From Herbidospora yilanensis (lineage in GTDB: Bacteria; Actinomycetota; Actinomycetes; Streptosporangiales; Streptosporangiaceae): a stretch of DNA of 64,000 nt. Where the stretch lies: assembly GCF_001570565.1 (NCBI RefSeq), contig NZ_BBXE01000033.1, positions 62,001-126,000 on the forward strand, written 5' to 3'. Under the pieces are notes generated by a model that was not told the origin of the DNA, ran no database searches, and saw only the letters and a program-made list of their open reading frames with translations. Numbering within the stretch: position 1 is the first letter of the stretch; every line of letters begins with the position of its first letter. Below, one piece after another: positions 35,946-62,147 of the stretch. Position numbers and translations under genes: made by a program.

Positions 35946-38900
35946 TTACACGTAGACGCCGAACTCCCAGAGCGAATAGCCCCACGGCGTGCCGCGTTGG
36001 GTCATCTCCACCCGCACGTACCGGGCGGTCGCCGTCAGGTTCAGGCTGTCGAAGCCGCCGTCGCCCGACGTCGTCGCGTAGGACTCGGTCCACGTCGTCC
36101 CGTTGGTGCTGGTCAGGACGCGGTAGGACTTGCCGTAGGCGCCCTCCCAGGCGAGTTGCACGTGCTTCACCGCCTGGTTGGAGCCCAGGTCGACCTGGAT
36201 CCACTGCGGGTCGGCCCACTCGCTGGCCCAGCGGGAGGTGTAGCTGCCGTCGGTGGCCCGGGCGGCGTTGAAGGGGCCGCCGTCGCCGGTCGCCTGGAAG
36301 GTCGAGGCCGTCGTGGTCTTGCCGGCCGCCACGTTGACGCCGGGGGCGACGGGCGGCACGACGCGGAACGACTTCGTCTCGATGCCGACGTTGCCGTGGC
36401 CGTCGTAGGCGTACACGTACACCTTCCAGACGCCCATGGCCTGCGGCGCGGTCACGGAGAAGCGGCCCGGCGAGGTCTCGGTGAACCTCACGTGGTCGAA
36501 GCCGCGGTTCCCGTTGACGTGCTTGTTGGAGAACATCAGGTTGTAGCGGATCAGGTCGCCGTTCGGGTCGGTGGTGCCGGTCTCCACGACGAACTGCGAG
36601 CCCGCGGGGACGGCCGTCTGGTTCTGGACCGTCATGGAGTTGATCTCCGGCGGGGTGTTGGCCGAGGCCGTGCCCGTGTACGCCCGCTTCAGCGAGTGGT
36701 AGCCGTGCCGTCGCCAGCCGCCCGTGAGGGTGTTGAGCCACACGCCGCCGAAGTCGTTCTCCAGGCCGTAGTGGAACTGGGTGGCGCCCAGCGCCACGCC
36801 GGTGTGGTTGTGGATGGCGTTGTAGCTGGCGGTGTACATGTCGCGCTTCTGCAGGTCGGTCGGCTCGGTCGGCACCCCGTTGACGTCGTCGGGGACCTCC
36901 CACTCGCCGTCGGGCCCGGCCTCGGTGACGATGTAGGGCTTGGTGTAGCCGCCGTTGATCCAGTCGGTGCGGACCGTGTGGATCGCGCCGTAGGAGTTGA
37001 CCGCCAGCAGGTCGAGGGCCGGCGAGTGAGCCCGGTAGTAGGTCCAGGCGAAGGTGTAGGCGTCGGTCGAGGTCACCGGGTGGTTCGGGTCGGCCGCCTT
37101 GATGGCGACCGCGACCTCGTTGACGAACTGGGCGTAGGCGACGCGCCGGGCCTCGACCGTCGCGGCCGGCAGGCCGTGGTCCTGCATCGTCAGGATGACC
37201 TCGTTGCCGACGTCCCACATCAGCACGCCCTGGCGGCCCTTCAGCGTGTTGACCCGGGCCACGATCTCGGCCTTCACGGCGGTCTTGTACGCCGTGTCGT
37301 TCACGTAGTCGGCGCCCTGGTTCAGCCAGTGGCCGACGATCACCTTGATGCCGTGCTGGGCGGCCTTGTCGAGCAGCGCCGGGGTGGCGTCGTCGACGCC
37401 CCAGATGCGGATCGTGTTGACGCCCATGTTCTTCAGGTCGCGCAGGTAGCCGTCGCCGGCGCTCTGCGGCGGGCCGTACGTGAGGCCCTTGACCTCCCAG
37501 GGCTGGCCGTTCACCTGGAGCTGCCAGTTGCCCTGGGTGCCCGTCACCCGCACGACCGACGGCCCGGCCGGAGTCGGGGGGTCGGTCATCGCGGCCGGGG
37601 TGGCGCCGGTCTGGCGGGCGACCTGCACCCAGTCGACGCTCAGCACGCCCCCCGGCGTGGTCGCGGCCGTCGGGGTGGTCTGACCGGCCAGCGCGTTCGG
37701 CAGCGAGCCGCCGATGGCCAGGTCGAAGCGCAGGTAGAAGCCATGGTGGATGGCCGCCTGCCAGGCCGCCACGCCGACCTGGGACTCCCTGACGACCCAG
37801 GTCTGCCGGCCGTCGAGGTAGAAGCGGATCTCCTCGTCGGTCTTGGTGCGGTCGATGACCTGCGTGTACTCGTGGTAGCCGGTCTGGCAGCCGGTGCACG
37901 ACGCGAAACCGCTGGTCCTTCCGTCGTACTCGTTGCAGACGCCGCCGGGCGCGGTGCCGCAGTGGAGGGTCTGGGCGAGCTGGTTGCGGCCGTTGACGTT
38001 GGTCATGATGTCGGTCTCGCCGACGCCGGGCCAGTTGGTGTAGTCGCCTCGGTAGGCGGCTCCCGTGGCGCGGAAGCCGGGCCAGTAGCCGAGGGCGTTG
38101 GCGACGTCGGGCTGCTTGAGGCGGGCGCTGAACCGGAGCATCTGGCCGGGCTGGGGGGCGAAGTCGGTGCGCTGGGTCTCGACGCGGCCGGAGGTCCAGT
38201 TGCCGGCGCCGTCCCGCAGCGCCTTGATCTCCAGGAAGCCCTGGCCGTTCAGCGACACGTTGGCGGTGGAGGCGCTCATGGTCTCGACCTCGCCGGTGCC
38301 CCAGTTGGCGGCGCCGCCGGGATAGGAGGTGCCGGTGCGCAGCAGCCAGTTCGCGGCGCTCGGGGAGGTGCCGGCGCCGCCGGTGAAGTCGTCACGCCAG
38401 ACCTCGGTCCAGTCTCCCGGCTGCTCCGGTTCCTGAGTGCCTCCGTCGCCCGAGTAGACCGCCATCTCCCACAGGCTGTAGCCCCAGCCCGAGTTGCGGG
38501 CGGTGCCGTGCATGCGGATGTAGCGGCCGGTCCCGCTCACGTCGATCGTCTGGGTGCCGCCGGCGCCCGTCGTGGTGCTGTGCAGGTCGGTCCAGGTCGT
38601 GCCATTGAGGCTCGATTGGATCTTGTACGCGGTCGCGTACGCCCCCTCCCAGGTCAGCACCACCTTGCAGACCGGCAGGGCCGAGCCCAGGTCGACCTGC
38701 ACCCACTGCGGGTCGCTGTAGGCGCTGGACCACCGGGTGGTCGCCGAGCCGTCGAAGGCGGCGCTCGCCGGGGTGCCGGCGTTCTCGACGCTGGAGGCCG
38801 TCGCGGTCTTCCCCTGGGCGACGTTGGCGGTCCCGCACGTGCCTCCGGGGTCGCCGGTGCCGCCGCCCGGCCCGAAGACCTGGAACTCCCAGAGGGAGTA

Positions 38901-39335
38901 GCCGTAGCCGGTGCCGCGCTGGGTGCCGTAGAGGCGGACGTAGCGCCCCGAGCCGGTGACGTTCAGCGTCTGGACGCCGCCCGTGCCGGTCGTGGTGGTG
39001 TAGACGTCGGTCCAGGTCGTGCCGTCGGTGCTGGTCTGGATGGCGAAGGAGCGGCCGTAGGCGGCCTCCCAGTGCAGGACGACCTGGCTGATCTGCCGGG
39101 TGGAGCCGAGGTCGGCCTGGACCCACTGCGGGTCGCTGAAGTTGGAGGCCCAGCGGGTGGTGAGGTCGCCGTCGAAGGCGGCGGCCGGGACGAAGGCCCC
39201 GCCTTCGGAGGAGGAGGCGGTCGCGGGTTTGCCCTGCGAGATCGGCGGGTCGGCGGCCGCCGCCGGTGACGGGACGGCCAGCCCGGACGCGACGAGCGCG
39301 GCCAGGGTGGCGATGAACAGGCCTAAGCGGGACAC
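35946..39335 (-). CDS. Secreted multimodular glycosidase: discoidin x2, GH16-like, TIM barrel, discoidin
   Basis: 1129-residue exported protein. Signal peptide 1-28; F5/8C (discoidin) carbohydrate-binding domains at about 30-155 and 168-295; a GH16-like domain at about 305-575; a GH2/GH5-like TIM barrel at about 595-870 with WDVGNEV (acid/base Glu712) and IVTEAG (nucleophile Glu805); an Ig-like domain; and a third discoidin domain at about 990-1129. In the GH16 domain the usual ExDxxE reads ETDIMT (440-445), so the acid/base Glu is Thr, and this module may bind rather than cleave. The barrel looks active and should act on a beta-linked polysaccharide. Transcription is probably controlled by the palindrome at 39368-39385 just downstream of a TTGACA promoter. 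Confidence 0.88.
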   Translation of the reverse strand: MSRLGLFIATLAALVASGLAVPSPAAAADPPISQGKPATASSSEGGAFVPAAAFDGDLTTRWASNFSDPQWVQADLGSTRQISQVVLHWEAAYGRSFAIQTSTDGTTWTDVYTTTTGTGGVQTLNVTGSGRYVRLYGTQRGTGYGYSLWEFQVFGPGGGTGDPGGTCGTANVAQGKTATASSVENAGTPASAAFDGSATTRWSSAYSDPQWVQVDLGSALPVCKVVLTWEGAYATAYKIQSSLNGTTWTDLHSTTTGAGGTQTIDVSGTGRYIRMHGTARNSGWGYSLWEMAVYSGDGGTQEPEQPGDWTEVWRDDFTGGAGTSPSAANWLLRTGTSYPGGAANWGTGEVETMSASTANVSLNGQGFLEIKALRDGAGNWTSGRVETQRTDFAPQPGQMLRFSARLKQPDVANALGYWPGFRATGAAYRGDYTNWPGVGETDIMTNVNGRNQLAQTLHCGTAPGGVCNEYDGRTSGFASCTGCQTGYHEYTQVIDRTKTDEEIRFYLDGRQTWVVRESQVGVAAWQAAIHHGFYLRFDLAIGGSLPNALAGQTTPTAATTPGGVLSVDWVQVARQTGATPAAMTDPPTPAGPSVVRVTGTQGNWQLQVNGQPWEVKGLTYGPPQSAGDGYLRDLKNMGVNTIRIWGVDDATPALLDKAAQHGIKVIVGHWLNQGADYVNDTAYKTAVKAEIVARVNTLKGRQGVLMWDVGNEVILTMQDHGLPAATVEARRVAYAQFVNEVAVAIKAADPNHPVTSTDAYTFAWTYYRAHSPALDLLAVNSYGAIHTVRTDWINGGYTKPYIVTEAGPDGEWEVPDDVNGVPTEPTDLQKRDMYTASYNAIHNHTGVALGATQFHYGLENDFGGVWLNTLTGGWRRHGYHSLKRAYTGTASANTPPEINSMTVQNQTAVPAGSQFVVETGTTDPNGDLIRYNLMFSNKHVNGNRGFDHVRFTETSPGRFSVTAPQAMGVWKVYVYAYDGHGNVGIETKSFRVVPPVAPGVNVAAGKTTTASTFQATGDGGPFNAARATDGSYTSRWASEWADPQWIQVDLGSNQAVKHVQLAWEGAYGKSYRVLTSTNGTTWTESYATTSGDGGFDSLNLTATARYVRVEMTQRGTPWGYSLWEFGVYV

Positions 39336-39367: not shown

Positions 39368-39385
39368 TTGGAGAGCGCTCTCCAA
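39368..39385. promoter_or_regulatory. CebR/CelR-like operator (glycosidase gene)
   Basis: Perfect 18-bp palindrome TTGGAGAGCGCTCTCCAA, 32 bases before the glycosidase ATG and just downstream of its candidate -10, as expected for a LacI-family repressor site. The same 16-bp core is repeated at 39491, 49672 and 53221. Confidence 0.8.
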
Positions 39386-39391
39386 ATCAAG

Positions 39392-39421
39392 AGACTCGCG
39401 CGGGCGGCTGACAGGTGTCAA
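39392..39421 (-). promoter_or_regulatory. Candidate promoter of the glycosidase gene
   Basis: On the minus strand TTGACA (39421-39416), an 18-base spacer and GAGTCT (39397-39392) precede the operator by 6 bases. The -10 is weak, but the layout matches the other operator-linked promoters in this region. Confidence 0.4.
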
Positions 39422-39490
39422 GGCCCCAATCCCGCGCGGGGAAACACCACCGAAACACCGGGGATGGCCGGAAGCAGGCATCGACGCAGG

Positions 39491-39506
39491 TGGAGAGCGC
39501 TCTCCA
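39491..39506. promoter_or_regulatory. CebR/CelR-like operator, second copy in divergent region
   Basis: Perfect palindrome TGGAGAGCGCTCTCCA in the middle of the 519-base region between the glycosidase and NRPS genes. No promoter is obvious beside it. It may help a repressor loop between the sites at 39368 and 39716. The remainder of this intergenic stretch (39336-39854) contains the promoters listed and no gene that I can support. Confidence 0.7.
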
Positions 39507-39670
39507 TGCGGCCGGCCCGCTGACCGAAACACCCGCTTTGACCTGCAGTAAGACCCGATCTGACTTCGGGCAGGCCGGCGCCGGATTGTCAAGGGCGGGC
39601 GCCGAATCGGGGCTGAAACTGCAGGCCGTTACCGCGATGTCATGAAACGTAATGAAATTTCGTCGTTTCC

Positions 39671-39700
39671 TTGACCCTGCCGAAAACGCGTCCATAGCCT
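39671..39700 (+). promoter_or_regulatory. Candidate promoter of the NRPS operon
   Basis: TTGACC (39671-39676), 18-base spacer, TAGCCT (39695-39700). Expected transcription start about 39706-39708, directly upstream of the operator at 39716-39729, giving a leader of about 150 bases. Confidence 0.5.
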
Positions 39701-39715
39701 CACAGAAGGGCGTAG

Positions 39716-39729
39716 TGGGAGCGCTCCCA
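39716..39729. promoter_or_regulatory. CebR/CelR consensus box before the NRPS operon
   Basis: TGGGAGCGCTCCCA, a perfect 14-bp palindrome identical to the operator described for CebR of Streptomyces and CelR of Thermobifida, LacI-family repressors released by cello-oligosaccharides. It lies 15 bases downstream of the candidate -10 and 125 bases before the NRPS start, a repressing position. Confidence 0.85.
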
Positions 39730-39854
39730 AATCAGTCGGCGGGGGCGCGGATTCGTGCTGTCCGCGTGAGCGGGACGCGGACGGCCGCAGGCCGGTCGTG
39801 GCCCGGGCTGCGAATCGGCCCCGACGAGGGGCCTCGACGAATCCGGAGCATCTG

Positions 39855-42800
39855 TTGACCAGTCTCTCCCCGGCCAAACAGGCACTTCTCGCCCGCCGGC
39901 TCCAGCGCCGGACCGTCTCGGAGACCATCGCGCCGCGTTCTCCCGAGATCGTCCCGCCGCTGTCGCACGCGCAGGAGCGCCTGTGGTTCCTGGAGCACTA
40001 CCGGGCGGGGACGACGGCGTACACGGTCCCCTACACGACCCGCCTCACCGGCGCCCTCGACGCGACGGCCTTCGCGGCGGCGGTGACGGAGGTGTCGCGC
40101 CGGCACGAGAGCCTGCGCATGCGCTTCCTCGCCTCGGACGACGGGCTGCCCGAGGTGGTCGTCGACGCCGAGCCCGCCACCGAGTTCTCCCTCGTGGAGG
40201 CCGCCTCCGAGGAGGCCGCCCAGGAGCTGATCACCGCCACGCTGGCCCGGCCCTTCGACCTGGCGGCCGGGGGGCTGCTCCGCGTCCTGCTGGTCCGCCT
40301 GGCCCCGGACGACCACGTCCTCCTGATGGCCGCCCACCACGCGGTCACCGACGGCTGGTCGGCCGAGATCCTGCTGCGCGAGCTGCTGACCCTGCACGGG
40401 GGCGACGCCCTCGACCCGCTGCCGATCCAGTACGGCGACTACGCCCTGTGGGAGCGCACCCGCGACCACACCCGCGACCTCGCCTACTGGCGCGACCGGC
40501 TGACCGGGGTGCCGCCGCTGGAGCTGCCGCTCGACTTCCCCCGCCCGGCCGAGCAGACCACCTCTGGCCGGGGCCACCGCTTCCGCGTCGACCCCGATCT
40601 CCTGGCCCGGTTCGCCGACCAGGGGGTGACGCCCTACATGCTCATGCTGGGCGCGCTGCAGCTCACCCTCGGCAGGTGGTCGGGGCAGCACGACTTCGCC
40701 GTCGGCTCGCCGGTCAGCGGACGCCCGCTGCCCGAGCTGGAACCCCTCGCCGGCATGTTCGTCAACACGCTCGCGATGCGGGCCGACCTGTCGGGCGACC
40801 CGTCCTTCGGGGAGTTCCTGCTCCGCGTCCGCGACTCCTGCCTGGACGCCTACGCCCACCAGGAGCTGCCGTTCGACAAGCTGGTCGGCGAACTGAAGGT
40901 GGAGCGCGACGTCAGCCGGTCGGCGGTGTTCCAGGTGCTGCTCGCGCTGCAGAACTACGGGCCCCGGGACGACCACGGGCTGACGGTCTCGGCGTTCCAT
41001 CCCGAGGTGACGGTCAGCCGCTTCGACCTGGCCTTCTACCTGTGGGGCGGCGACGGCCTGGTCATCTACAACCCCGACCTGTTCCGGCCCGAGACCGTCA
41101 CCCGGCTGACCGAGTCGCTGACGACCGTCCTGCGCGCCGCGCCCGAGACCCCGTTGTCGCAGGTGGCGTGGGTTCCCGACGCCGACGAGGTGCTGGCCCT
41201 GGGGGTCGCGGCCCCGGCCCGGCCGCTGCCCGCCCGGTTGCTGCACGAGCTGCCGCCCGTCACCGACGCCCCGGCCGTGGTGTTCGGGGGCGAGGTGGTG
41301 ACGTACCGGGAACTGGACCGGCGCGCCAACCACCTGGCCCACCGGCTGCGGTCGTCCGGGGTGCGCCCCGGCGACCGCGTGGCCGTCTGCCTGGAGCAGT
41401 CGGCCGGGGTGGCCGCGGCCCTGCTGGGCGTCCTCAAGGCGGGCGCGGCCTACGTCCCCCTCGACCCGGAGCAGCCGGACGACCGGCTGGCCTACCTGAT
41501 CGGCGACTCCGGGGCGCGGGTGTCGGTCACCGGACGCCCGCTGCCCGGCGGGACCGTCGAACTCGGCCTGGACGCGGGCGAGGCGGCCGGCCCGCCCGAC
41601 ACCGGGGTGACGCCCGGCGACCTGGCCTACGTGATCTACACCTCCGGGACGACCGGCCGGCCCAAGGGGGTGGCGGTGCGGCACCGGGAGGTGCTGACCT
41701 ACCTGTCCGGCGTGCGGGAGCGGTTCGGGATCGAGGACGGGAAGGTGTTCGCCCTCCCCCAGTCGCTCGCCTTCGACTTCGGGGTGACGATCTTCTACCT
41801 GTCGCTGATGACCGGCGGCACCCTGCACCTGATCCCGCCGAAGTCGACCGACCCGTGGCCGGTCCGCCCCGACTACCTGAAGATGACCCCCTCCCACCTG
41901 GCGGCCCTCGACGTCGAGCTCCCGAAGGAGCTGCTCATCCTGGGCGGCGAGGCCTCGACCGTCGGCTGGGCCTCCGAGCTGGCCGGGCACTGCCGGGTGG
42001 TCAACCACTACGGCCCGACCGAGGCGACCGTCGGCGTGACCACCTTCGAGGTCGAGCCCGGTCAGACCGGCCAGGCCACGCTGCCCATCGGACGGCCGCT
42101 GCCGGGGGCGCGGGTCTACGTGCTGGACGAGCACCTGCGGCCCGTCCCGGCCGGGGTGACGGGCGAGATCTACCTGGGCGGCGACCGGCTCGCCCGCGGC
42201 TACCTCGGCAAGCCCGCCCTCACCGCCGAGAAGTTCCTCCCCGACCCCTACGGGCCGCCGGGCTCCCGCGTCTACCGGACCGGCGACCTGGGCCGCTGGA
42301 CCCACGACGGGGTGCTGCAGTTCCTCGGCCGCCGCGACCTCCAGGTCAAGATCCGGGGCTACCGGGTCGAGCTGAGCGAGGTCGAGACGGTGCTCGCCGA
42401 ACATCCCGCCGTCGCGCAGGCGGTGGTGGAGCTGCGCGACCAGCGGCTGGTCGCCTACCTGGTCGGCGACGAGATCCCGGCCGTCGACGTGCGGGCCTGG
42501 GCCAGGGACCGGCTGCCCGACTACATGGTCCCGGCCCGGTGGGTGTGGCTCGACGTCCTGCCGCTCAAGGCGCACGGCAAGGTCGACCGCGCGGCCCTGC
42601 CGTCGGCCGACGAGCCGGTCCTGACCGGCCTGGTCGCGCCCGCGACGGAGGCCGAGGAGACCATCGCCGCGATCTGGGCGGCGGTATTGGGGCTGGAACG
42701 GGTCGGGGTGACCGACGACTTCTTCGACCTGGGCGGCCACTCCTTGCTCGCGATGCAGGTGGTGGCCCGCATGCGCAAGGCCGGTCACCCGGTGACGCTG

Positions 42801-45071
42801 ATGCGGCTGTTCACCCACCCGACCGTGCGTGAGCTGGCCCGGGAGGAGAGCGGCTCCGGCGGCCTGCTCCACCGGCTGACCCCCGAGCGCCCGGTGACCG
42901 CCTCCCTCGTCTGCGCCCCCTACGGCGGCGGCAGCGCGGTCATCTACAAGCCGCTGGCCGACGCGATGCCCGGCGACTGGGCGCTGCACTCGATCGCCGT
43001 CCCCGGCAACGAACTCGGCGAGGAGCCGCGCCCGGCCGAGGAGGTCGCCGAGCAGGTCACCGCCGAGATCCTCGCCACCGTCGAGGGCCGCGTCGTCCTG
43101 TACGGCCACTGCGGCGCGGGCACCACCCTCGTCGCGGCCGTCGCCCGCCGGCTCGAAGCGGCCGGGCGGCCGGCCGAGGCCGTCTACCTGGGCGGCGTGT
43201 TCCCCTTCACCCGGCCCCGGGGCCTGTTCGCCCGGGTGGGCGAGTGGCTGGAGGACCACGGCAGCGACCAGTCCCGCATCAACGGCCTGGTGGCCTCGGG
43301 CCTGGACGTGGCCGAGTTCGACCAGGCCGAACTCGAACTCATCGTCCGCAACCGGCGGCGCGGCACCCGGGAGGCGGAGCGGTACTTCGCCCGCCTCTTC
43401 GAGGAGGGCGCGGAACCGCTGTCGGCCCCGGTGATCGCGGTGGCCGGGGAACGCGACCCGGTCATGGAGTTCTACCAGGAGCGCTACCGCGAGTGGCACT
43501 GCCTGTCCCGGGTGACGGCCTGTGTGGTCCTGGACGAGGCGGCGCACTACTTCGTGAAATACCGGGCCGAGGAACTGGCCACGATCGTGACCACCGTCCA
43601 CGGCGAGCTGGCGGAAGACGCGTCCGGTGACGTGCTGCCCGCGAAGGGGACCGGCACGTGGTGGGTCGAGGGCGTCTCCCGGACGGACAGCCCCGTCCCG
43701 GACGCCGGGCTGCCCAGATCGGCCGGGCCCGCGCCGAGCATGCGGCGCTTCCTCGTGCTCGCCGCGGGTCAGCTCGTCTCGATGACCGGGTCGGCGCTGA
43801 CCGAGTTCGCCATCCCGCTCTGGATCTACCTGGAGACCGGCTCGCTGGCCAACTTCGCGCTGTTCTCGGTGCTGGGCCTGGTGCCGGGGCTGCTCGCCGC
43901 CCCGCTCGCGGGGGCCGTGGTCGACCGGTTCAACCGGCGGGCGGTGCTGCTGTGCGCCGACTTCGCGGCCGGGGGGACCCAGCTCGGGCTGGGCATCCTC
44001 GTCTGGACCGGAACGATACAGATCTGGCATGTCTACCCGCTGCTCGTGACGCTCTCGGTCGCGCTCACCTTCCAGCGGGTCGCCTACGCCTCGGCCATCC
44101 CCCAGCTCGTGCCGAAGCGGTACCTCGGTCACGCCAACGGCGTCGTCGGGATGGCCACCGGGGTCGCCCAGCTCGTGGTCCCGCTGGTCGCGGCGGGGCT
44201 GCTCGCGGTGGTCGGGCTGGGCGGGATCCTGGTCATCGACGTGGTCAGCTACGTGGTGGCGATCGCCGTGCTGGCCGCGATCAGGTTCCCGCGCAGCCTG
44301 CCGTGGAAGCGGCGGGAGACCGTGCTGAAAGAGATGGCCGAGGGGTTCCGCTACACCTGGGGGCATCTGGGCATCCGGCGCATGCTGCTGTTCTTCGCGG
44401 TCGTGAACCTGTTCATGTCGCCGCTGTTCCTGCTGGTCTCGCCGCTGGTGCTGAGCTTCGGCGACACCGCCGACGTGGGGCGGGTGGCGTTCTTCGGCGG
44501 GCTCGGGGTGTTCCTGGGCGGGCTCGCGATGACCTTCTGGGGCGGCCCGCGCCGGCTCCGGCTGCGCGGCCAGTTGCTCGCCACGCTCTCGCTGGCGGCG
44601 TTCGCGCTGGTCGTCGGGGTGCGTGAGGACTTGGTCGTGATCGCGGCCGGCGCCTTCGGCATGTTCGCCTCGCTGACCGTGCTGAACGGCATCTACAACA
44701 CGATCATCCAGGTCAAGGTTCCCCAGCGGTTCCACGGCCGGGTCTTCGCGCTGAACCAGCTTGTGGCCTTTTCGACACTCCCTATCGGCTATGGGCTCAT
44801 CGCCCCTTACGGAACGGCGCTGTTCGAGCCGTTGATGGCCGCGGACGGCCCCCTGAGCAGTACGGTCGGCATGATCATCGCAACCGGGGAAGGGCGTGGG
44901 ATCGCTCTCATGTACGTCCTGTTCGCCCTGGTCATGGCGGCCACGGTCGCCATCGGGACACGGATGCGGCGGTTGTGGAATTTCGATCTGGAGGTTCCGG
45001 ACGCCATCCCCGACGATGTCATCGGGTTCGCAGCAGTTGGTGCGAAAAAGCTCAGCACGGAGGAAAAGTGA
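39855..45071 (+). CDS. NRPS C-A-T-TE fused to an MFS exporter
   Basis: 1738-residue fusion. Condensation domain (about 30-450) with active AAHHAVTDG (His161/162, Asp166). Adenylation domain (about 455-940) with YTSGTTGRPKG and GYRVELSEVE; hand-read pocket residues D-F-T-K-L-L-H-V-G-K resemble Asp-type codes. Carrier domain with DLGGHS (Ser963). Type I thioesterase (about 1020-1260) in which the nucleophile elbow is GHCGAG (Cys1086 instead of Ser), with Asp in AGERDP and His in EAAHYF. A 12-helix MFS transporter fills residues 1295-1738. The TTG at 39855 has GGAG 7 bases upstream and fits the LSPAKQALLARRL start; a GTG at 39798 is the alternative. The stop overlaps the carrier-protein start. 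Likely final module: condenses, releases and exports the product. Confidence 0.9.
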   Translation: MTSLSPAKQALLARRLQRRTVSETIAPRSPEIVPPLSHAQERLWFLEHYRAGTTAYTVPYTTRLTGALDATAFAAAVTEVSRRHESLRMRFLASDDGLPEVVVDAEPATEFSLVEAASEEAAQELITATLARPFDLAAGGLLRVLLVRLAPDDHVLLMAAHHAVTDGWSAEILLRELLTLHGGDALDPLPIQYGDYALWERTRDHTRDLAYWRDRLTGVPPLELPLDFPRPAEQTTSGRGHRFRVDPDLLARFADQGVTPYMLMLGALQLTLGRWSGQHDFAVGSPVSGRPLPELEPLAGMFVNTLAMRADLSGDPSFGEFLLRVRDSCLDAYAHQELPFDKLVGELKVERDVSRSAVFQVLLALQNYGPRDDHGLTVSAFHPEVTVSRFDLAFYLWGGDGLVIYNPDLFRPETVTRLTESLTTVLRAAPETPLSQVAWVPDADEVLALGVAAPARPLPARLLHELPPVTDAPAVVFGGEVVTYRELDRRANHLAHRLRSSGVRPGDRVAVCLEQSAGVAAALLGVLKAGAAYVPLDPEQPDDRLAYLIGDSGARVSVTGRPLPGGTVELGLDAGEAAGPPDTGVTPGDLAYVIYTSGTTGRPKGVAVRHREVLTYLSGVRERFGIEDGKVFALPQSLAFDFGVTIFYLSLMTGGTLHLIPPKSTDPWPVRPDYLKMTPSHLAALDVELPKELLILGGEASTVGWASELAGHCRVVNHYGPTEATVGVTTFEVEPGQTGQATLPIGRPLPGARVYVLDEHLRPVPAGVTGEIYLGGDRLARGYLGKPALTAEKFLPDPYGPPGSRVYRTGDLGRWTHDGVLQFLGRRDLQVKIRGYRVELSEVETVLAEHPAVAQAVVELRDQRLVAYLVGDEIPAVDVRAWARDRLPDYMVPARWVWLDVLPLKAHGKVDRAALPSADEPVLTGLVAPATEAEETIAAIWAAVLGLERVGVTDDFFDLGGHSLLAMQVVARMRKAGHPVTLMRLFTHPTVRELAREESGSGGLLHRLTPERPVTASLVCAPYGGGSAVIYKPLADAMPGDWALHSIAVPGNELGEEPRPAEEVAEQVTAEILATVEGRVVLYGHCGAGTTLVAAVARRLEAAGRPAEAVYLGGVFPFTRPRGLFARVGEWLEDHGSDQSRINGLVASGLDVAEFDQAELELIVRNRRRGTREAERYFARLFEEGAEPLSAPVIAVAGERDPVMEFYQERYREWHCLSRVTACVVLDEAAHYFVKYRAEELATIVTTVHGELAEDASGDVLPAKGTGTWWVEGVSRTDSPVPDAGLPRSAGPAPSMRRFLVLAAGQLVSMTGSALTEFAIPLWIYLETGSLANFALFSVLGLVPGLLAAPLAGAVVDRFNRRAVLLCADFAAGGTQLGLGILVWTGTIQIWHVYPLLVTLSVALTFQRVAYASAIPQLVPKRYLGHANGVVGMATGVAQLVVPLVAAGLLAVVGLGGILVIDVVSYVVAIAVLAAIRFPRSLPWKRRETVLKEMAEGFRYTWGHLGIRRMLLFFAVVNLFMSPLFLLVSPLVLSFGDTADVGRVAFFGGLGVFLGGLAMTFWGGPRRLRLRGQLLATLSLAAFALVVGVREDLVVIAAGAFGMFASLTVLNGIYNTIIQVKVPQRFHGRVFALNQLVAFSTLPIGYGLIAPYGTALFEPLMAADGPLSSTVGMIIATGEGRGIALMYVLFALVMAATVAIGTRMRRLWNFDLEVPDAIPDDVIGFAAVGAKKLSTEEK

Positions 45072-45388
45072 ACGTAGAGCGGGTCATGCGGCTCTGGAGC
45101 GAGATCCTCGGGGTTCCGGTCACGTCCCCGGACGTGGACTTCTTCGACCTCGGCGGTCAGTCGCTGGCGATGGTGCAGTTCTTAGCCCGGGTGGAGAGCG
45201 AGTTCGGCGTGGTGTTGCCGATCGAGGTGCTGTTCGCGGGCGACCTGACCGCGTCCGGGGCGGCACGGGCCATCCAGGAGATCCTCGACGAGGAGGGCGA
45301 GGACGTCGACGCGCTGCTCGCCGAGGTCGACGCCCTGCCCACGGGCGAGATCAGGGCGCTTCTGGGAGACCGCACGTGGCGCGAGTGA
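45068..45388 (+). CDS. Free-standing peptidyl/acyl carrier protein
   Basis: 106-residue carrier protein with the phosphopantetheine site DLGGQSLAM (Ser32) in a four-helix bundle sequence, and an acidic C-terminal extension (EEGEDVDALLAEVDALP). The GTG start overlaps the NRPS stop (GTGA at 45068) and GGAGG precedes it. Since the two NRPS proteins each have their own carrier, this one probably holds a starter or side unit, perhaps loaded by one of the two A domains in trans. No free ligase gene is in the operon. Confidence 0.9.
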   Translation: MNVERVMRLWSEILGVPVTSPDVDFFDLGGQSLAMVQFLARVESEFGVVLPIEVLFAGDLTASGAARAIQEILDEEGEDVDALLAEVDALPTGEIRALLGDRTWRE

Positions 45389-46610
45389 TCATGTCCACGC
45401 ACGGCAGCCATGGTGACGTGCTGCCGTTCGTGGCCCTCGGCCGGGCGCTGCGCGACCGCGGCCACGAGGTCGAGCTGCTCACCCACGGGCCCTTCCGGGA
45501 CCTGGCGGAGCGGGCCGGCCTGGAGTTCACGGCGATCGACACGCGCGAGGCGTACGAGGCGAACCTGGCGGACACTCCCCCGCTGCTGGGCGCCGGCCTC
45601 GGGCGGTGGCGCGACTACTACGAGGCCAACGGGCTGTTCGAGCAGATCGTGTTCGAGATCCGGCACACGATGGAACGATACGTTCCGGGCGAGACCATCT
45701 TGGTGGGGCGGCACACCACGGCCATCTCCACCCTGTTCGCCGCCGAGGCGCTCGACGCCCCGGCCGCCTGGGTCGCGGTGACGCCGATCCAGTACATGTC
45801 CGAGCGCGGCATCGCGCACACCTACGCCCAGACGATGGCCGACCGCCTCGACGCCGTCCGCGCGGGCGTCGGGCTGCCGCCGGTGAAGGACTGGGCGGCC
45901 TGGTTCGCGTCGGCCCACCTCGACGTGGCGCTCTGGCCCTCGTGGTTCGACCGGGCGGGCACTCCCTCGCCCAAGCGGGTGCGCCTGACCGGCGCGCCGC
46001 TCGGCGACTCCGACGGCGACCACGAGCTCCCGCCGGAGGCCGCGGAACTGCTCGACCAGGACGCCGTGCTGGTCACCGGCGGGACCGGGCGGATGCTGCA
46101 CCAGCGGTTCTACGAGGTCGCCGTCGAGGCCTGCCGGGCGGTCGGGCGGCCCGCGCTGCTGGCCGTGCGGCACCGCGACCTGGTGCCCGCGACGCTGCCC
46201 GACGGGATGCGCTGGTTTCCCGGCCTGCCGTTCGACCGGGTCGTCCCGAGGGTGGGGGCGATCCTGCACCACGGCGGGATCGGCACCCTGATCAGGGCGG
46301 CCACCTCGGGCACCCCGCAGGTCGTCCTGGCCCACGGGTTCGACCGGGCCGAGAACGGCGCCCGGGTCGCGGCGGCCGGGCTCGGGTCGTGGTTGCCCGA
46401 GCAGCGGTGGTCGCCCGAGGAGGCGGCCGCGCTGCTGAAGGCCGCGCTGACCGGGCCGCGTGTCCGGGTGCCCGCCGACGGCGGGCTCGGCGCGGCGGCC
46501 GAGGCGATCGAAGGGCTGGCCGGAACCCCGGCCCCCTATTCGGCCAGACATCTACTCACCCGGGAGGAGCGCCTGGCGCTCGCCCGCCGACTGCGCTCAG
46601 GAGAGACGGC

Positions 46611-46614
<4 letters not shown>
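45376..46614 (+). CDS. GT1-family glycosyltransferase (MGT type)
   Basis: 412-residue glycosyltransferase of the GT-B fold, like antibiotic and macrolide glycosyltransferases. N-terminal motif ARVIMSTHGSHGDVLPFVALGR; donor-binding motif LHHGGIGTLIRAATSGTPQVV (HHGGIGT at 298-304). It would move a sugar from an NDP-sugar to the peptide product or carrier-bound intermediate. The GTG at 45376 lies 13 bases inside the carrier-protein gene, with GGGAG upstream, and the stop overlaps the next ATG. No deoxysugar biosynthesis genes are near, so a common sugar such as glucose is the simplest donor (inference). Confidence 0.92.
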
Positions 46615-49642
<3,028 letters not shown>

Positions 49643-49646
<4 letters not shown>

Positions 49647-49672
49647 CAGGGCCGGTCCCGGATCCCTTCAAT
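49643..49672 (+). promoter_or_regulatory. Candidate promoter of the GH3 gene
   Basis: TTGACA (49643-49648, overlapping the NRPS stop codon), 18-base spacer, TTCAAT (49667-49672), ending at the operator. It allows the GH3 gene to be expressed separately from the NRPS operon. Confidence 0.5.
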
Positions 49673-49687
49673 GGAGAGCGCTCTCCA
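49672..49687. promoter_or_regulatory. CebR/CelR-like operator (GH3 gene)
   Basis: Perfect palindrome TGGAGAGCGCTCTCCA immediately after the candidate -10 and 25 bases before the GTG start. An in-frame ATG (49671) falls inside this operator and is not the start. Confidence 0.8.
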
Positions 49688-49712
49688 AACCCACTCAGAC
49701 GCGGGGGGATCT

Positions 49713-52163
49713 GTGGACTTCGTCCGGCTGTTGTCCGGGTCGTCGGTATGGCGGACCGCTTCGGAACCTCTCCTGGGGCTGCCCGAACTCGTCATGTCCG
49801 ACGGCCCGGTCGGGGTGCGCGGCCCCGGCTGGGACGAGCGGCGCACCTCGCTCGTCCTGCCCTCCCCGACCGCCCTGGCGGCGACCTGGGACGTCGGTCT
49901 CGTCGGCGAGCTCGGCGCCCTCCTGGGCTCCGAGGCCCGCCGCAAGGGCGTCGACGTCCTGCTGGCCCCCAACCTCAACCTGCACCGTTCCCCGCTCGGG
50001 GGCCGCCACTTCGAGTGCTTCTCCGAAGACCCCCTGCTCACCGGGCTTATCGGGGCCGCCTACATCGCCGGCGTCCAGTCGCGCGGGGTGGCGGCGACGG
50101 CCAAGCACTACGTGGGCAACGAGGCCGAGACCGAACGCATGACCTACGACTCGCTCATCGCCGCCCGCGTGCTGCGGGAGGTCTACCTCGCGCCGTTCGA
50201 GGCGGCGGTGGCGGCGGGGGTGTGGGTGGTGATGTCGGCCTACAACCGGGTCAACGGGGCCTCGATGGCGGAGAATCCGCTGCTGCGCGACCCGCTGAAG
50301 ACCGAGTGGGGCTTCGACGGGGTGGTGGTCTCCGACTGGGGCGGCGTGCGCTCGACGGTCGCCTCGGCCCTGTCGGGCCAGGACCTCGCGATGCCGGGGC
50401 CGAACGACTTCTGGGGCGACCCGTTACGCGCGGCCGTCCGGGACGGAACGGTCCCCGAGGCGGTCGTCCACGACAAGATCGCCCGGCTGAGGTTGCTGGC
50501 CGACCGGGTCCGCGTCCTGCCTGAGGCGGCGACCGGGCCGACGCCGCACGCCGAATGCGACGCGCCCCTCCAGACGACCTCGCCCGACCGTCCGCACCCC
50601 GGTCGTGAAGCTCCCCGCGCAGTTCCGAAGACGCTGGCCGAGCGGGTGCAGCTCACCCGGAACGGTGGGCTCGCGCCGGAGACGGCCGGATCGGAGCAGG
50701 CCGCCGGCGGGCACGCGGGCGACCCCGCCGAACTCGCGCTGCTGCGGCGGGCGGTGGCCGACTCGTGCGTGCTGCTGAAGAACGACGGCGGGGTGTTGCC
50801 GCTGGCCACACCCCGGATCGTGGTCATCGGGGCGCACGCGGCGCGGACCAGGATCCAGGGCGGCGGGAGCGGAGGCGTCTACCCCTCGGGTGTCGTCTCC
50901 ATCCTCGACGGGCTGCGGGAGGTCGCGCCCGGACTGGTCCACGTGCCGGGGGTCGACGTCCAGGCCGGGCCGACGCCCGTCGACCGGGCGTGGGTGCGGA
51001 TGCTCGGCGGCGACGGCGAGGAGCTGTTCGCCGAGGACCGGCGGACCGGCTGGTTGCCCGAGCCGTCGGTGGTCGAGGGCACCACGACCGTCGAGGTCAG
51101 CTCCTTCCTGCGCCCGGAGGTCTCCGGGCACTGGCGGCTCTCCATCGCCGGCTGGGGACGCCTCACCCTGAGCGTCGACGGTCAGCGGGTGCTCGACACC
51201 CATGTGCCCTGCGACAGCGACGATCCCGCCACCGTCCACCTCAAACCGCCGTTCCGGCACGCCGTCGTCTGGCTCGAAGAGGGCGTCGAGGTGCTCGTCA
51301 CGGGCACCCGGGCCATCGAGCCCCATACCGGCCGGGCCTGCGTGCTGGCCGCCGACCCGCCCCGGCCCGACGACGACGCCGCGATCCAGGCCGCCGTCGA
51401 CGCGGCGCGGAACGCCGACGTCGCGGTCGTCGTGGTCGGCACCACCGAGGAGATCGAGAGCGAGGCGCACGACCGGGCCGACCTCGCGCTCCCCGGCCGC
51501 CAGGACGACCTCGTCAAGGCCGTCGCGGCCGCCGCGAGGACGGTCGTCGTGGTCAACTCGGGCGGGCCGGTCGCGCTGCCCTGGCGCGACGAGGTCGACG
51601 CGCTGCTGCTCTGCTGGTTCCCGGGGCAGCAGGGCGGGCACGGCGTCGCCGACGTCCTGTCCGGACGCCGGGAACCCGGCGGCAGGCTGCCCACGACCTG
51701 GAGCGACGTCCCGCTCCTCCCGGCCGCGCCGGTGCACGGGCAGGTGATCTACGCCGAGGGGCCGAACGTCGGCCATCGCGGCTGGCTGACCGCCGACAGG
51801 TCGCCTGGCTACTGGTTCGGCCACGGCCTCGGTTACACGACGTGGTCCTACGAGAGCCTCACGCCGGTCGGCGACGGGGTCCGGGTCAGGGTCAGGAACA
51901 CCGGCGAGCGGCCGGGGCGGGAGGTCGTGCAGGTCTACCTGTGCAAACCGGGGTCGGGCCGGCCGCCGCGCTGGCTGGCCGGGTTCGCCGTCGTGCGCGC
52001 CGATCCGGGCGAGGCGGTCGAGGTGGTCGTCGGGTTGCCCCGGAGGGCCTTCCAGCACTGGGAGGCGGGCGGGTGGCGTACCGAGGATGGGGAGTTCGTC
52101 GTGCACGCCGGACGCTCGGTGGTCGATCTGCGCCTTAAATGCGTTGCGTCCCCATCGCCGTGA
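49713..52163 (+). CDS. GH3 beta-glucosidase with PA14-type insertion
   Basis: 816-residue family 3 glycosidase without signal peptide, so probably cytoplasmic. Barrel domain: LVMSDGPVGVRG, HFECFSEDPLLTG, KHYVGNEAE and nucleophile VVVSDW (Asp208). A Pro/Ala-rich linker of about 60 residues (275-335) is longer than in the paralogue at the window start. Then comes the second domain interrupted by a PA14-like segment (MLGGDGEELF to HTGRACVLA), the acid/base region TTEEIESEAHDR and a C-terminal Fn3-like domain. The GTG at 49713 has GGGGGG upstream. Shares the operator with the flanking secreted proteins; it would hydrolyse imported beta-glucosides, or possibly the glycosylated NRPS product. Confidence 0.93.
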   Translation: MDFVRLLSGSSVWRTASEPLLGLPELVMSDGPVGVRGPGWDERRTSLVLPSPTALAATWDVGLVGELGALLGSEARRKGVDVLLAPNLNLHRSPLGGRHFECFSEDPLLTGLIGAAYIAGVQSRGVAATAKHYVGNEAETERMTYDSLIAARVLREVYLAPFEAAVAAGVWVVMSAYNRVNGASMAENPLLRDPLKTEWGFDGVVVSDWGGVRSTVASALSGQDLAMPGPNDFWGDPLRAAVRDGTVPEAVVHDKIARLRLLADRVRVLPEAATGPTPHAECDAPLQTTSPDRPHPGREAPRAVPKTLAERVQLTRNGGLAPETAGSEQAAGGHAGDPAELALLRRAVADSCVLLKNDGGVLPLATPRIVVIGAHAARTRIQGGGSGGVYPSGVVSILDGLREVAPGLVHVPGVDVQAGPTPVDRAWVRMLGGDGEELFAEDRRTGWLPEPSVVEGTTTVEVSSFLRPEVSGHWRLSIAGWGRLTLSVDGQRVLDTHVPCDSDDPATVHLKPPFRHAVVWLEEGVEVLVTGTRAIEPHTGRACVLAADPPRPDDDAAIQAAVDAARNADVAVVVVGTTEEIESEAHDRADLALPGRQDDLVKAVAAAARTVVVVNSGGPVALPWRDEVDALLLCWFPGQQGGHGVADVLSGRREPGGRLPTTWSDVPLLPAAPVHGQVIYAEGPNVGHRGWLTADRSPGYWFGHGLGYTTWSYESLTPVGDGVRVRVRNTGERPGREVVQVYLCKPGSGRPPRWLAGFAVVRADPGEAVEVVVGLPRRAFQHWEAGGWRTEDGEFVVHAGRSVVDLRLKCVASPSP

Positions 52164-52201
52164 CCACTATCAATGGTGGCCGGAAGAAAGGAGGGATCGA
52201 T

Positions 52202-52249
52202 ATGCGTGGCATCATCACGCCCGATTCCTCCCGACAGGGCGAGGAGTGA
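52202..52249 (+). CDS. Possible 15-codon leader peptide
   Basis: ATG at 52202 with a near-ideal ribosome-binding site (AAAGGAGGG, 6-base gap), encoding MRGIITPDSSRQGEE then TGA, 27 bases before the acetyltransferase ATG. The strong Shine-Dalgarno on so short a frame suggests a translated upstream ORF coupling to or attenuating the next gene. No run of a single amino acid typical of attenuators is present. Confidence 0.4.
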   Translation: MRGIITPDSSRQGEE

Positions 52250-52276
52250 TCGGGCGACCTCTCACGAAGGAAGCCC

Positions 52277-53164
52277 ATGTTGGAAATCCGGCCCCTGAAG
52301 GGCCGTCACGAACTCGACCTGTTCCGCCGTTTCCCGTCGTCGCTGAACGCCGAACTGGAGGCCGACCTCGACGCCGGCCGCCGCCGCCTCGACTGGTCGT
52401 GGCTCGCGCTCCGCGACGGCGAGCCGGTCGCCCGCGTCGCCTGGTGGTGCCGCGACGGCGACGAAGACCCGCTGGTCATGGACGTCTTCGACCTCGACAC
52501 CCCGGAGGCCGGCCGGGCGCTGCTCGACGCCGCGATGCGCCACGTCGTCACGGGCACCCCGCCGCCGTTCCTGCGGTTCGTCCCGCCCGACTGGCGTGAC
52601 CACGACACGACCTGGCTCGACGTCCTCCAGGAGGCGGGCGCGAAACCGCTGGTGGAGCGCCTGCGCCTCGAATGGCGCCCCGGCACGCCCATCGCGCCCA
52701 CCACGCTGGAGTTCCGCGAGCCGGCCGGCCGCGACGAACTGGTCGGCCTGATGACCGAGGTGGTCGAGGGCAGCCTCGACGCCCACACCCGGGCCGAACT
52801 GGCCCAGATGACCCCCCGCGAACAGGCCGAGAGCCAGTACGAGCAGGAACTGGCCCTCTACCGGTCGCCCCGCGAGTGGTGGCGGATCGGGATCGTCGAC
52901 GGCGAGCCCGCGGGCTTCGTCATCCCGGCCAGGAACGCCTACAACGCGATCATCGCCTACATCGGCGTCGTCCCGGCCCACCGGGGGAAGGGGCTCGTCG
53001 GCGAACTCCTCGCCGAGGGCACCCGGATCCTGGCGGGAAACGACGTTCCCAGGATCCGCGCCAGCACCGACGTCACCAACGTGCCGATGGCCCGCGCCTT
53101 CGCCCGCGCGGGCTACGTCACCATCGAGCACCAGGTCGACCTGGTCTGGGAGCAACCTGTGTGA
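52277..53164 (+). CDS. GNAT family N-acetyltransferase
   Basis: 295-residue acetyltransferase, longer than single-domain GNATs and probably two tandem GNAT folds. The second carries the acetyl-CoA motif VVPAHRGKGLVGELL and NVPMARAFARAGY, both typical; the first is degenerate. The ATG at 52277 follows GAAGGA. The acceptor is unknown. It sits between two operator-controlled genes but has no operator of its own. It could decorate a product of the NRPS locus, but nothing in the sequence proves it. Confidence 0.88.
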   Translation: MLEIRPLKGRHELDLFRRFPSSLNAELEADLDAGRRRLDWSWLALRDGEPVARVAWWCRDGDEDPLVMDVFDLDTPEAGRALLDAAMRHVVTGTPPPFLRFVPPDWRDHDTTWLDVLQEAGAKPLVERLRLEWRPGTPIAPTTLEFREPAGRDELVGLMTEVVEGSLDAHTRAELAQMTPREQAESQYEQELALYRSPREWWRIGIVDGEPAGFVIPARNAYNAIIAYIGVVPAHRGKGLVGELLAEGTRILAGNDVPRIRASTDVTNVPMARAFARAGYVTIEHQVDLVWEQPV

Positions 53165-53186
53165 ACTGCGTGTTTCCAACACGGTA

Positions 53187-53216
53187 TTGACAAGGTGAGA
53201 TGACACGGCCCACTCT
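53187..53216 (+). promoter_or_regulatory. Candidate promoter of the discoidin-DUF1996 gene
   Basis: TTGACA (53187-53192), 18-base spacer, CACTCT (53211-53216), then the operator 4 bases on. Same spacing pattern as at 49643. Confidence 0.45.
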
Positions 53217-53220
53217 CCTT

Positions 53221-53236
53221 TGGAGAGCGCTCTCCA
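53221..53236. promoter_or_regulatory. CebR/CelR-like operator (discoidin-DUF1996 gene)
   Basis: Perfect palindrome TGGAGAGCGCTCTCCA directly downstream of the candidate promoter and 28 bases before the GTG start. Confidence 0.8.
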
Positions 53237-53264: not shown

Positions 53265-54602
53265 GTGCATCCACGAATACGCCTGAGCCTGATCGTCGCC
53301 ACCATCGTGGCGACGATCACGGCCGGGCTGGCCGTCATCGCGCCCGCGATGGCCGCCGACGCCCTCATCTCCCAGAACCGGCCGGCCACCGCCTCGTCGA
53401 ACGAGGGCGATGGCTACGCCGCCGGCGCCGCGTTCGACGGCAACACCGGCACCCGCTGGGCCAGCGCCTTCAGCGACCCCCAGTGGATCCAGGTCGACCT
53501 GGGCGGCAACGCCACGATCTCCCAGGTGGTCCTCCAGTGGGAGGGCGCCTACGGGAAGTCGTTCACGATCCAGACCTCCGCCAACGCGGGCGGCCCGTAC
53601 ACGGACGTCTACACCACCACGACCGGCACCGGCGGCACGCAGACGCTGAACGTCACCGGTTCGGGGCGCTACGTCCGCCTCTACGGCACCCAGCGCGGCA
53701 CCGGCTACGGCTACTCGTTGTGGGAGTTCAAGATCTACGGCACGGGCGGCTCCGGCCAGCAGCCGGTCCCGAGCCCGACGTTCACCGACCCGGTCACCCA
53801 CCGCGAGTTCCAGGCCAACTGCTCGCTCACCCAGCACCGCCCGGACGACCCCATCGTCTACCCCAACCTGCCGGGCGCCTCCCACATGCACACCTTCGTC
53901 GGCAACACCACGACGAACGCCGCCAGCACCTCGGCGTCGCTGCTCAACGGCTCGACGTCGTGCACCAACCCGCACGACAAGTCGGCCTACTGGTTCCCGA
54001 GCTTCTACAAGGGCGACCAGCTCATCGCGCCGATCGGCAACCAGGTCATCTACTACAAGTCCGGCATCCACGAATACTGGCGCGTGGTGCCCTTCCCGCA
54101 GGGGCTGCGCTTCGTCGTCGGCAGCCCGACCGCCACGCTCGCCGAGTTCCGCGACTCCCCCGGCCGGGTCGAGGGCTTCGAGTGCGGAGACATCTCCTTC
54201 CAGTGGGACATCCCGGCCAACTGCCCGGCCGGCAGCCAGGTCAACGTCCGCTACCAGGCCCCGAGCTGCTGGGACGGCGTGAACCTCGACAGCGCCAACC
54301 ACAAGAGCCACATGGCCTACCCGGTCGGCGGCTACTGCCCCTCGTCCCACCCGGTGGCGGTGCCGATGCTGGAATTCAAGATCGCCTTCCCGGCGAGCGG
54401 AGACCTGTCGAACGCCAGGTTGTCGAGTGGCCGCGGCTACTCGTGGCACTACGACTTCTTCAACGCCTGGGACGACCCGGCGATCCTGGCCGCGCTGGTC
54501 CGCCACTGCATCAACGGCGGGCTCCAGTGCAACCCGCGCGGCTACGACCTCTACAAACCGCATCGAGGCGCGGCACTGACGGAGAACTTCGAACTTCCGT
54601 GA
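53265..54602 (+). CDS. Secreted discoidin-DUF1996 protein
   Basis: 445-residue exported protein. The GTG at 53265 (GAGGAG upstream) begins a signal peptide (VHPRIRLSLIVATIVATI, cleavage after PAMA). Residues about 35-165 form an F5/8C discoidin domain almost the same as the first one of the 35946-39335 glycosidase (shared GRYVRLYGTQRGTGYGYSLW). Residues about 180-440 are a DUF1996 domain with HMHTFVGN, SAYWFPSFY, SCWDGVNLD and HKSHMAYP. DUF1996 proteins are secreted in fungi and actinomycetes, often with carbohydrate-binding modules, and are suspected to act on polysaccharides; the activity is unknown. Operator-controlled like the glycosidases. Confidence 0.9.
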   Translation: MHPRIRLSLIVATIVATITAGLAVIAPAMAADALISQNRPATASSNEGDGYAAGAAFDGNTGTRWASAFSDPQWIQVDLGGNATISQVVLQWEGAYGKSFTIQTSANAGGPYTDVYTTTTGTGGTQTLNVTGSGRYVRLYGTQRGTGYGYSLWEFKIYGTGGSGQQPVPSPTFTDPVTHREFQANCSLTQHRPDDPIVYPNLPGASHMHTFVGNTTTNAASTSASLLNGSTSCTNPHDKSAYWFPSFYKGDQLIAPIGNQVIYYKSGIHEYWRVVPFPQGLRFVVGSPTATLAEFRDSPGRVEGFECGDISFQWDIPANCPAGSQVNVRYQAPSCWDGVNLDSANHKSHMAYPVGGYCPSSHPVAVPMLEFKIAFPASGDLSNARLSSGRGYSWHYDFFNAWDDPAILAALVRHCINGGLQCNPRGYDLYKPHRGAALTENFELP

Positions 54603-61984: not shown

Positions 61985-62147
61985 ACGAGTCGTGCCGCCT
62001 CGATCGTGACACAGCGATTTCACCCCGAAAAGCGATCACACAGTGACATGTCGCCACATCACGGCCCACCCGGGGAGAGACGGGGCCGAATGGGAGGTAC
62101 GCCCCTCGGCCGGCCACCCCGGTCTGCGCCTGATCCGCGGCGCTCGC

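Follow-up and report, generated by a model that had tools for sequence, protein, structure and literature searches.

In Herbidospora yilanensis an operon for nonribosomal peptide synthesis lies among genes for glucan-degrading enzymes, and palindromes precede both. This raises the question of which repressors may read these sites, and whether peptide synthesis could be coupled to polysaccharide digestion. We analysed a window of 64,000 nucleotides (positions 62,001 to 126,000 of contig NZ_BBXE01000033.1), alongside the remaining genome and those of related actinomycetes. We consider it probable, at roughly 70%, that CebR controls the nonribosomal peptide synthetase (NRPS) operon and a second LacI-family protein, here LacI17, the glucan genes, that the operon joined the glucan locus in the Herbidospora ancestor, and that it is one case of a pattern repeated in the family.

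The operon, its neighbours and five palindromes

The operon opens with NRPS1 (39855..45071, plus strand), a C-A-T-TE-MFS protein with the Asp-like adenylation code DFTKIGHVG, which measures 1738 residues from a TTG start, as does its counterpart in Komaki's nrps-5. On the same strand follow a free-standing carrier protein (PCP, 45068..45388), a GT28-type glycosyltransferase (45361..46614, start approximate) and NRPS2 (46611..49646), a C-A-T protein of 1011 residues with the Gly code DILQLGVIW. Both codes agree with the Asp and Gly of Komaki, who described the Herbidospora clusters nrps-5 (Gly-Asp) and nrps-7 (Asn) (Komaki 2015, PMC4599437). There, nrps-5 has the same genes as the window operon, with domain order and lengths (1738 and 1011 residues) in agreement, and the terms CebR, LacI, regulator, cellobiose and glucan do not occur in that paper. 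Named relatives of the glycosyltransferase belong to six Herbidospora and two Acrocarpospora species.

On the other side of the intergenic region, sec1 (35946..39335, minus strand) encodes a secreted CBM32-CBM32-GH16-GH158-CBM32 protein with three F5/8C domains, a probable beta-1,3-glucanase. Among solved structures it matches the GH16 endo-1,3-beta-glucanase 3dgt (2.4e-84), 9oro for GH158 (3.2e-28) and 4zxe for the CBM (1.4e-34), and in Pfam its barrel gives a weak match to GH2/GH72. Behind the operon, on the plus strand, lie genes for a GH3 beta-glucosidase (49713..52163), a GNAT acetyltransferase (52277..53164) and a secreted CBM32-DUF1996 protein (53265..54602). The best solved chain for the GH3 is 7pjj (2.9e-194), presumably the S. 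scabiei enzyme BcpE2, which acts on plant heterosides; the window GH3 is only about 55% identical to the same-locus GH3 of other genera. The secreted glycosidases of the original prediction are borne out in part: no signal peptide was seen by eye in the GH3, which leaves the GH16/GH158 protein and the DUF1996 protein as the ones that seem to be secreted. CBM32-DUF1996 proteins occur at both glucan loci, the other at L053:5414-6709. Directly behind the DUF1996 gene stands a large LuxR-family regulator (54733-57168); one Acrocarpospora (L078) has a relative behind this locus too.

Five palindromes of two forms are indeed present. Four are copies of TGGAGAGCGCTCTCCA, at 39369 (previously given as 39368), 39491, 49672 and 53221, with no further match in a scan tolerating up to three mismatches; at that tolerance 0.65 copies are expected in the window, and four were reached in 1 of 100 shuffles. 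The other form, TGGGAGCGCTCCCA, has a single exact copy, at 39716, and two-mismatch matches at 40449 and 44897, both inside NRPS coding sequence. Across the 7.85 Mb genome (7,854,788 bases, 67 contigs), the scan that had been proposed returned 6 sites for the GGAGAGCGCTCTCC core of the first form, four of them in the window, and 18 for the GGGAGCGCTCCC core of the second, one of them in the window (16 exact TGGGAGCGCTCCCA copies), together with 38 PF00356 (LacI) matches, 37 of which exceed the cut-off. Reversed-pattern controls for both cores gave no site in the whole genome. Chance origin of the palindromes was ruled out by the window shuffles, the rarity in the genome and the promoter controls given below.

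As predicted, TTGACN-N18 elements lie upstream of the sites at 39369, 39716, 49672 and 53221, here read by eye. The CebR/CelR box (39716..39729) follows directly 3' of the NRPS promoter TTGACC-N18-TAGCCT (39671..39700, plus strand; TTGACC at 39671-39676, TAGCCT at 39695-39700), which is conserved in seven Herbidospora, with one base missing from the -35 in H. galbida, and also, in altered form, in two Acrocarpospora. The 16-bp site at 39369..39384 belongs to the sec1 promoter (TTGACA at 39421..39416, minus strand). That at 49672..49687, directly behind the NRPS operon, overlaps the GH3 -10 (TTGACA 49643-49648, TTCAAT 49667-49672), and that at 53221..53236 lies ahead of the CBM32-DUF1996 gene (TTGACA 53187-53192); the -10 hexamers at the 39369 and 53221 promoters are poor. 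The remaining site (39491..39506) has no TTGACN-N18 promoter of its own to the eye; it lies 122 bp from the first in 7/7 Herbidospora, with one outer base changed in H. galbida (L070), and 225 bp ahead of the 14-bp box, and may serve sec1, the NRPS operon or both. Gene order and sites, including those at 39369, 49672 and 53221, are kept in all six other Herbidospora, and the exact TGGGAGCGCTCCCA box stands at nrps-5 in 7/7. Further upstream of the NRPS promoter, at 39545-39665, the conserved stretches TGACCTGCNGTAA and CATGAANCGTAATGAAAT are common to Acrocarpospora, perhaps another regulator's site.

Candidate repressors for the two palindromes

The palindrome before the NRPS operon had been taken for a CebR/CelR box, and this reading is upheld by an exact TGGGAGCGCTCCCA in the promoter, the same box before this genome's cellulases and a cebR orthologue within an ABC/GH1 locus. 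By position, seven of the 18 GGGAGCGCTCCC sites precede cellulases or CBM2 proteins (GH9, GH48, GH9, GH6 and three CBM2), two the solute-binding gene of a ceb-like ABC-GH1-LacI locus, two NRPS genes and one, by eye, an epimerase-like gene; the remaining six lie near two LacI genes, as an unclear pair on contig C13, at an ambiguous site on C25 and at the C38 locus. The ceb-like locus (L056, on C20) holds solute-binding, permease, GH1 and LacI genes, one permease frame being without Pfam match. Its LacI protein matches 5ysz, which we take to be T. fusca CelR, at 1.1e-124 with an identical recognition helix, GVGRGTVSRVING.

The 16-bp sites differ from TGGGAGCGCTCCCA by two changes per half-site and were therefore not filed as CebR sites. 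Outside the window, the GGAGAGCGCTCTCC core occurs twice: 7 bases before the LacI17 gene on C17 (L052:7598-8632), and on C38 ahead of a CBM32x3-GH16 gene that is followed by CBM32-DUF1996. Among 200 family genomes, a LacI17 orthologue (E <= 1e-110) was found in 48 and the 16-mer in 31, all 31 within the 48 (Fisher 1.9e-24), with none in the 152 genomes lacking the orthologue; 17 of the 48 have no exact 16-mer. Moreover, 30/30 LacI17 orthologues fetched among the 51 matches listed have the exact core 14-41 bases upstream of their own start. At 13 non-Herbidospora loci, chosen for having the 16-mer, LacI17 was present in nine, GH3 in eight, and homologues of sec1 and of the DUF1996 protein in five each. 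At locus L085 the 16-mer adjoins CebR-like genes, with no LacI17 within 14 kb. NCBIfam has no specific name for LacI17 or for the CebR-like repressor.

The GGAGAGCGCTCTCC sites, a cognate LacI gene (on a separate contig, C17), GH3 and CBM32 genes are thus all found, and with LacI17 the 16-bp sites form, with putative operator binding, a coherent regulon around beta-1,3-glucan, not cellulases. The original assignment of all five sites to the CebR/CelR type consequently fails for four: these track LacI17, beside GH16, GH158, GH3 and CBM32 genes, so the glycosidases are probably under a repressor other than that of the NRPS. Whether one repressor or two paralogues were involved had been left undecided; the comparative evidence, with the 16-mer only where LacI17 is, favours two, and the two operator types are most likely meant for two LacI-family repressors. 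The window has no LacI gene, as stated before. The only PF00356 match on its contig, C33:49741, about 12 kb before the window start, was rejected as regulator: its helix reads VPTVSKV, and no site of this kind was observed next to the gene.

Could CebR alone read both palindromes, making NRPS and glycosidases one regulon? Both half-sites carry GAGC beside the centre and the repressors are related, with helices that are similar albeit different (SRA in LacI17 against GRG in CebR), so that cross-binding is possible. A CebR orthologue is however present in 119/200 family genomes, compared to the 31 with the 16-mer, every one of which has LacI17; the self-placed sites of LacI17 and the lack of the 16-bp palindrome from all 60 NRPS promoters described below also speak against a single reader, which we reject as very unlikely. 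Alternatively, LacI17 may mainly control the NRPS operon, as a response to beta-1,3-glucan with the 14-bp box secondary, since the 16-bp sites at 39491 and 49672 flank the operon in 7/7 Herbidospora, one of them shortly before the box. The promoters that 16-bp sites overlap are nevertheless those of sec1 and GH3, whereas it is the 14-bp box that overlaps the NRPS1 transcription start region, and this box is retained in Acrocarpospora, although no 16-bp site turned up around the operon there. We regard such control as unlikely.

It is similarly improbable, in our view, that another LacI paralogue, sensing a different sugar, reads the NRPS box. The genome has 37 LacI genes to choose from, and TTGGGAGCGCTCCCAA occurs at C13:270399 and C16:23136, ahead of two of them (C13:270465 and C16:23286); because of these, the 14-bp box may not be exclusive to CebR and may have more readers. 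Against this, where the neighbour of a box site is readable, it is mostly a cellulose gene or part of the ceb locus, and in other genomes the boxed NRPS genes frequently have cebR at a distance of no more than 30 kb. Control may also be dominated by the LuxR-type regulator or by the conserved stretches at 39545-39665.

We thus favour two repressors. The CebR/CelR orthologue encoded on C20 would bind TGGGAGCGCTCCCA and block the promoter of the NRPS1-PCP-GT28-NRPS2 operon until released by imported cello-oligosaccharides, as at cellulase genes and in thaxtomin synthesis, and its paralogue LacI17 would hold down the glucanase, GH3 and DUF1996 genes via TGGAGAGCGCTCTCCA, probably to be released by beta-1,3-gluco-oligosaccharides. 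Judging from gene content and sites, these soil bacteria probably make the peptide only while they digest cell walls with such polysaccharides.

CebR boxes at NRPS genes of the family

The nrps-7 gene, of the same architecture as NRPS1, lies a few kb from cebR and has the exact box in 7/7 Herbidospora. In the present genome the cluster (L066:898-12123, on C20) adjoins cebR and has its own CebR box, with GT28, GT4, lipoyl-E2-like and GH1 genes; the genome's three remaining NRPS-TE-MFS genes are box-less. We then assembled 60 NRPS-TE-MFS promoters, namely six Herbidospora nrps-7 orthologues and 54 hand-chosen non-Herbidospora genes, mainly higher-scoring full-length ones among the matches listed. 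The box was exact in 18 and within one mismatch in 23 (shuffles 0.0 and 0.01), while 29 permuted half-sites gave no hit and 170 random palindromes at most one promoter each. Exact boxes number 0-20 per genome in 37 genomes. At up to one mismatch, the box stands at 17/54 of the non-Herbidospora promoters and at 13/18 of a second set, made up of partial matches omitted at first, some fetched for nearness to cebR, to a total of 30/72 in 12 genera with about zero expected (one locus, L214, is the same as L100).

Distances to cebR, counted from where the TE-MFS match begins, were compared for 58 of the 60 promoters (the other two come from genomes for which no CebR was listed), and for the first set only, as some of the other 18 had been fetched for that nearness: cebR lies within 30 kb of 13/23 boxed and 0/35 box-less promoters. 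In a quick tree of 65 genes (L118 and L156 left out for length), the boxed genes fall into five separate groups, and the box needs 5 state changes, which are not a count of gains, against 21 when shuffled; four are forced by well-supported branches. A 2-oxoacid dehydrogenase E1/E2-type set, which the window operon lacks, accompanies 7/10 boxed neighbourhoods and 0/2 box-less ones. The CebR-boxed clusters L161, L163-L167 and L170 have in common a thiamine-dependent E1 alpha/E1 beta/lipoyl E2 set, joined by GH1 in L164, L165 and L170. A class-wide search returned close NRPS-TE-MFS matches in 11/296 genomes, all of the same family.

In Acrocarpospora the nrps-5 box is present at 3/3 loci seen, imperfectly, so control may be weaker there. 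A. catenulata has TGGGAGCGTTCCCA (one mismatch) at the same promoter position, its operon being on a different contig from the sec1-GH3-DUF1996 locus and without a 16-bp site within the stretch read. The picture is the same for A. corrugata (one mismatch, operon away from the glucan locus), and a third locus, matched by NRPS1 alone, carries TGGGAGCGTCCCCA with two mismatches. Conversely, the five sec1 loci found outside Herbidospora have no adjoining NRPS, and four of them have sec1 and GH3 side by side in divergent orientation. On the simplest reading, the operon had its CebR-type box before it joined the glucan locus in the Herbidospora ancestor, a direction that we infer.

Taken more widely, and somewhat short of even odds in our estimate, small NRPS-TE-MFS lines may have been wired repeatedly to the cellulose repressor in Streptosporangiaceae (at least 4-5 state changes, 13 genera including Herbidospora), often beside cebR, for a secreted, perhaps glycosylated peptide made during digestion of wall polysaccharides. 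The Herbidospora operon would further have been placed in a beta-1,3-glucan locus, two wall sugars perhaps being read at one place.

Relation to known systems

For one set of NRPS genes, those for thaxtomin in Streptomyces scabiei, control by CebR has already been described (PMC5332605, PMC4890002), and in the parts available of PMC8914351 and PMC12527672 the cluster said to have CebR sites is likewise that of thaxtomin. Recurrence of such control across a family appears unreported: the open-licence literature yielded no CebR-NRPS link besides thaxtomin and no family-wide version, no report of a LacI protein with AGAGCGCTCT, nothing relevant on cellobiose in nonribosomal synthesis of Streptosporangiaceae and, from titles and abstracts, no laminaribiose-LacI work on actinomycetes. 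A single plant-pathogen toxin provides the detailed example of a peptide-antibiotic type cluster directly controlled by a food-sugar repressor, and the same switch would stand before NRPS genes of actinomycetes from 13 genera, all outside the streptomycetes. If true, cellobiose, perhaps also laminari-oligosaccharides, would offer a simple means to wake these silent clusters, and making the compound while eating the wall would have been selected many times, not once.

The likeness to thaxtomin, within the parts of those papers available, lies in an NRPS cluster with CebR boxes and release by cello-oligosaccharides, and as a mechanism the comparison drawn originally holds. The thaxtomin boxes are however imperfect and placed at -786/-899 or inside txtB, whereas the window box is perfect and in the NRPS core promoter. 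Furthermore, the window operon has no txtR-like gene, organism and product are unrelated, and the pattern recurs in other genera. Judged on architecture, it is not of the txtA/txtB plus txtR type, as Pfam gives C-A-T-TE-MFS, PCP, GT28 and C-A-T.

For the 16-bp sites, the precedent is Streptosporangium roseum, where Anderson 2012 (PMC3377646) reported the GGAGAGCGCTCTCC palindrome at Sros_3721-3725 and Sros_7173 and, in the sections available, judged its neighbour genes not to be cellulose enzymes. The same palindrome there accompanies a LacI gene, two CBM32 proteins and a GH3, and, unlike in the window, no NRPS. Beyond that report, as available, the present analysis ties the LacI protein to the site by the 200-genome co-occurrence and the self-placed sites, and reads the enzymes as putative beta-1,3-glucanases.
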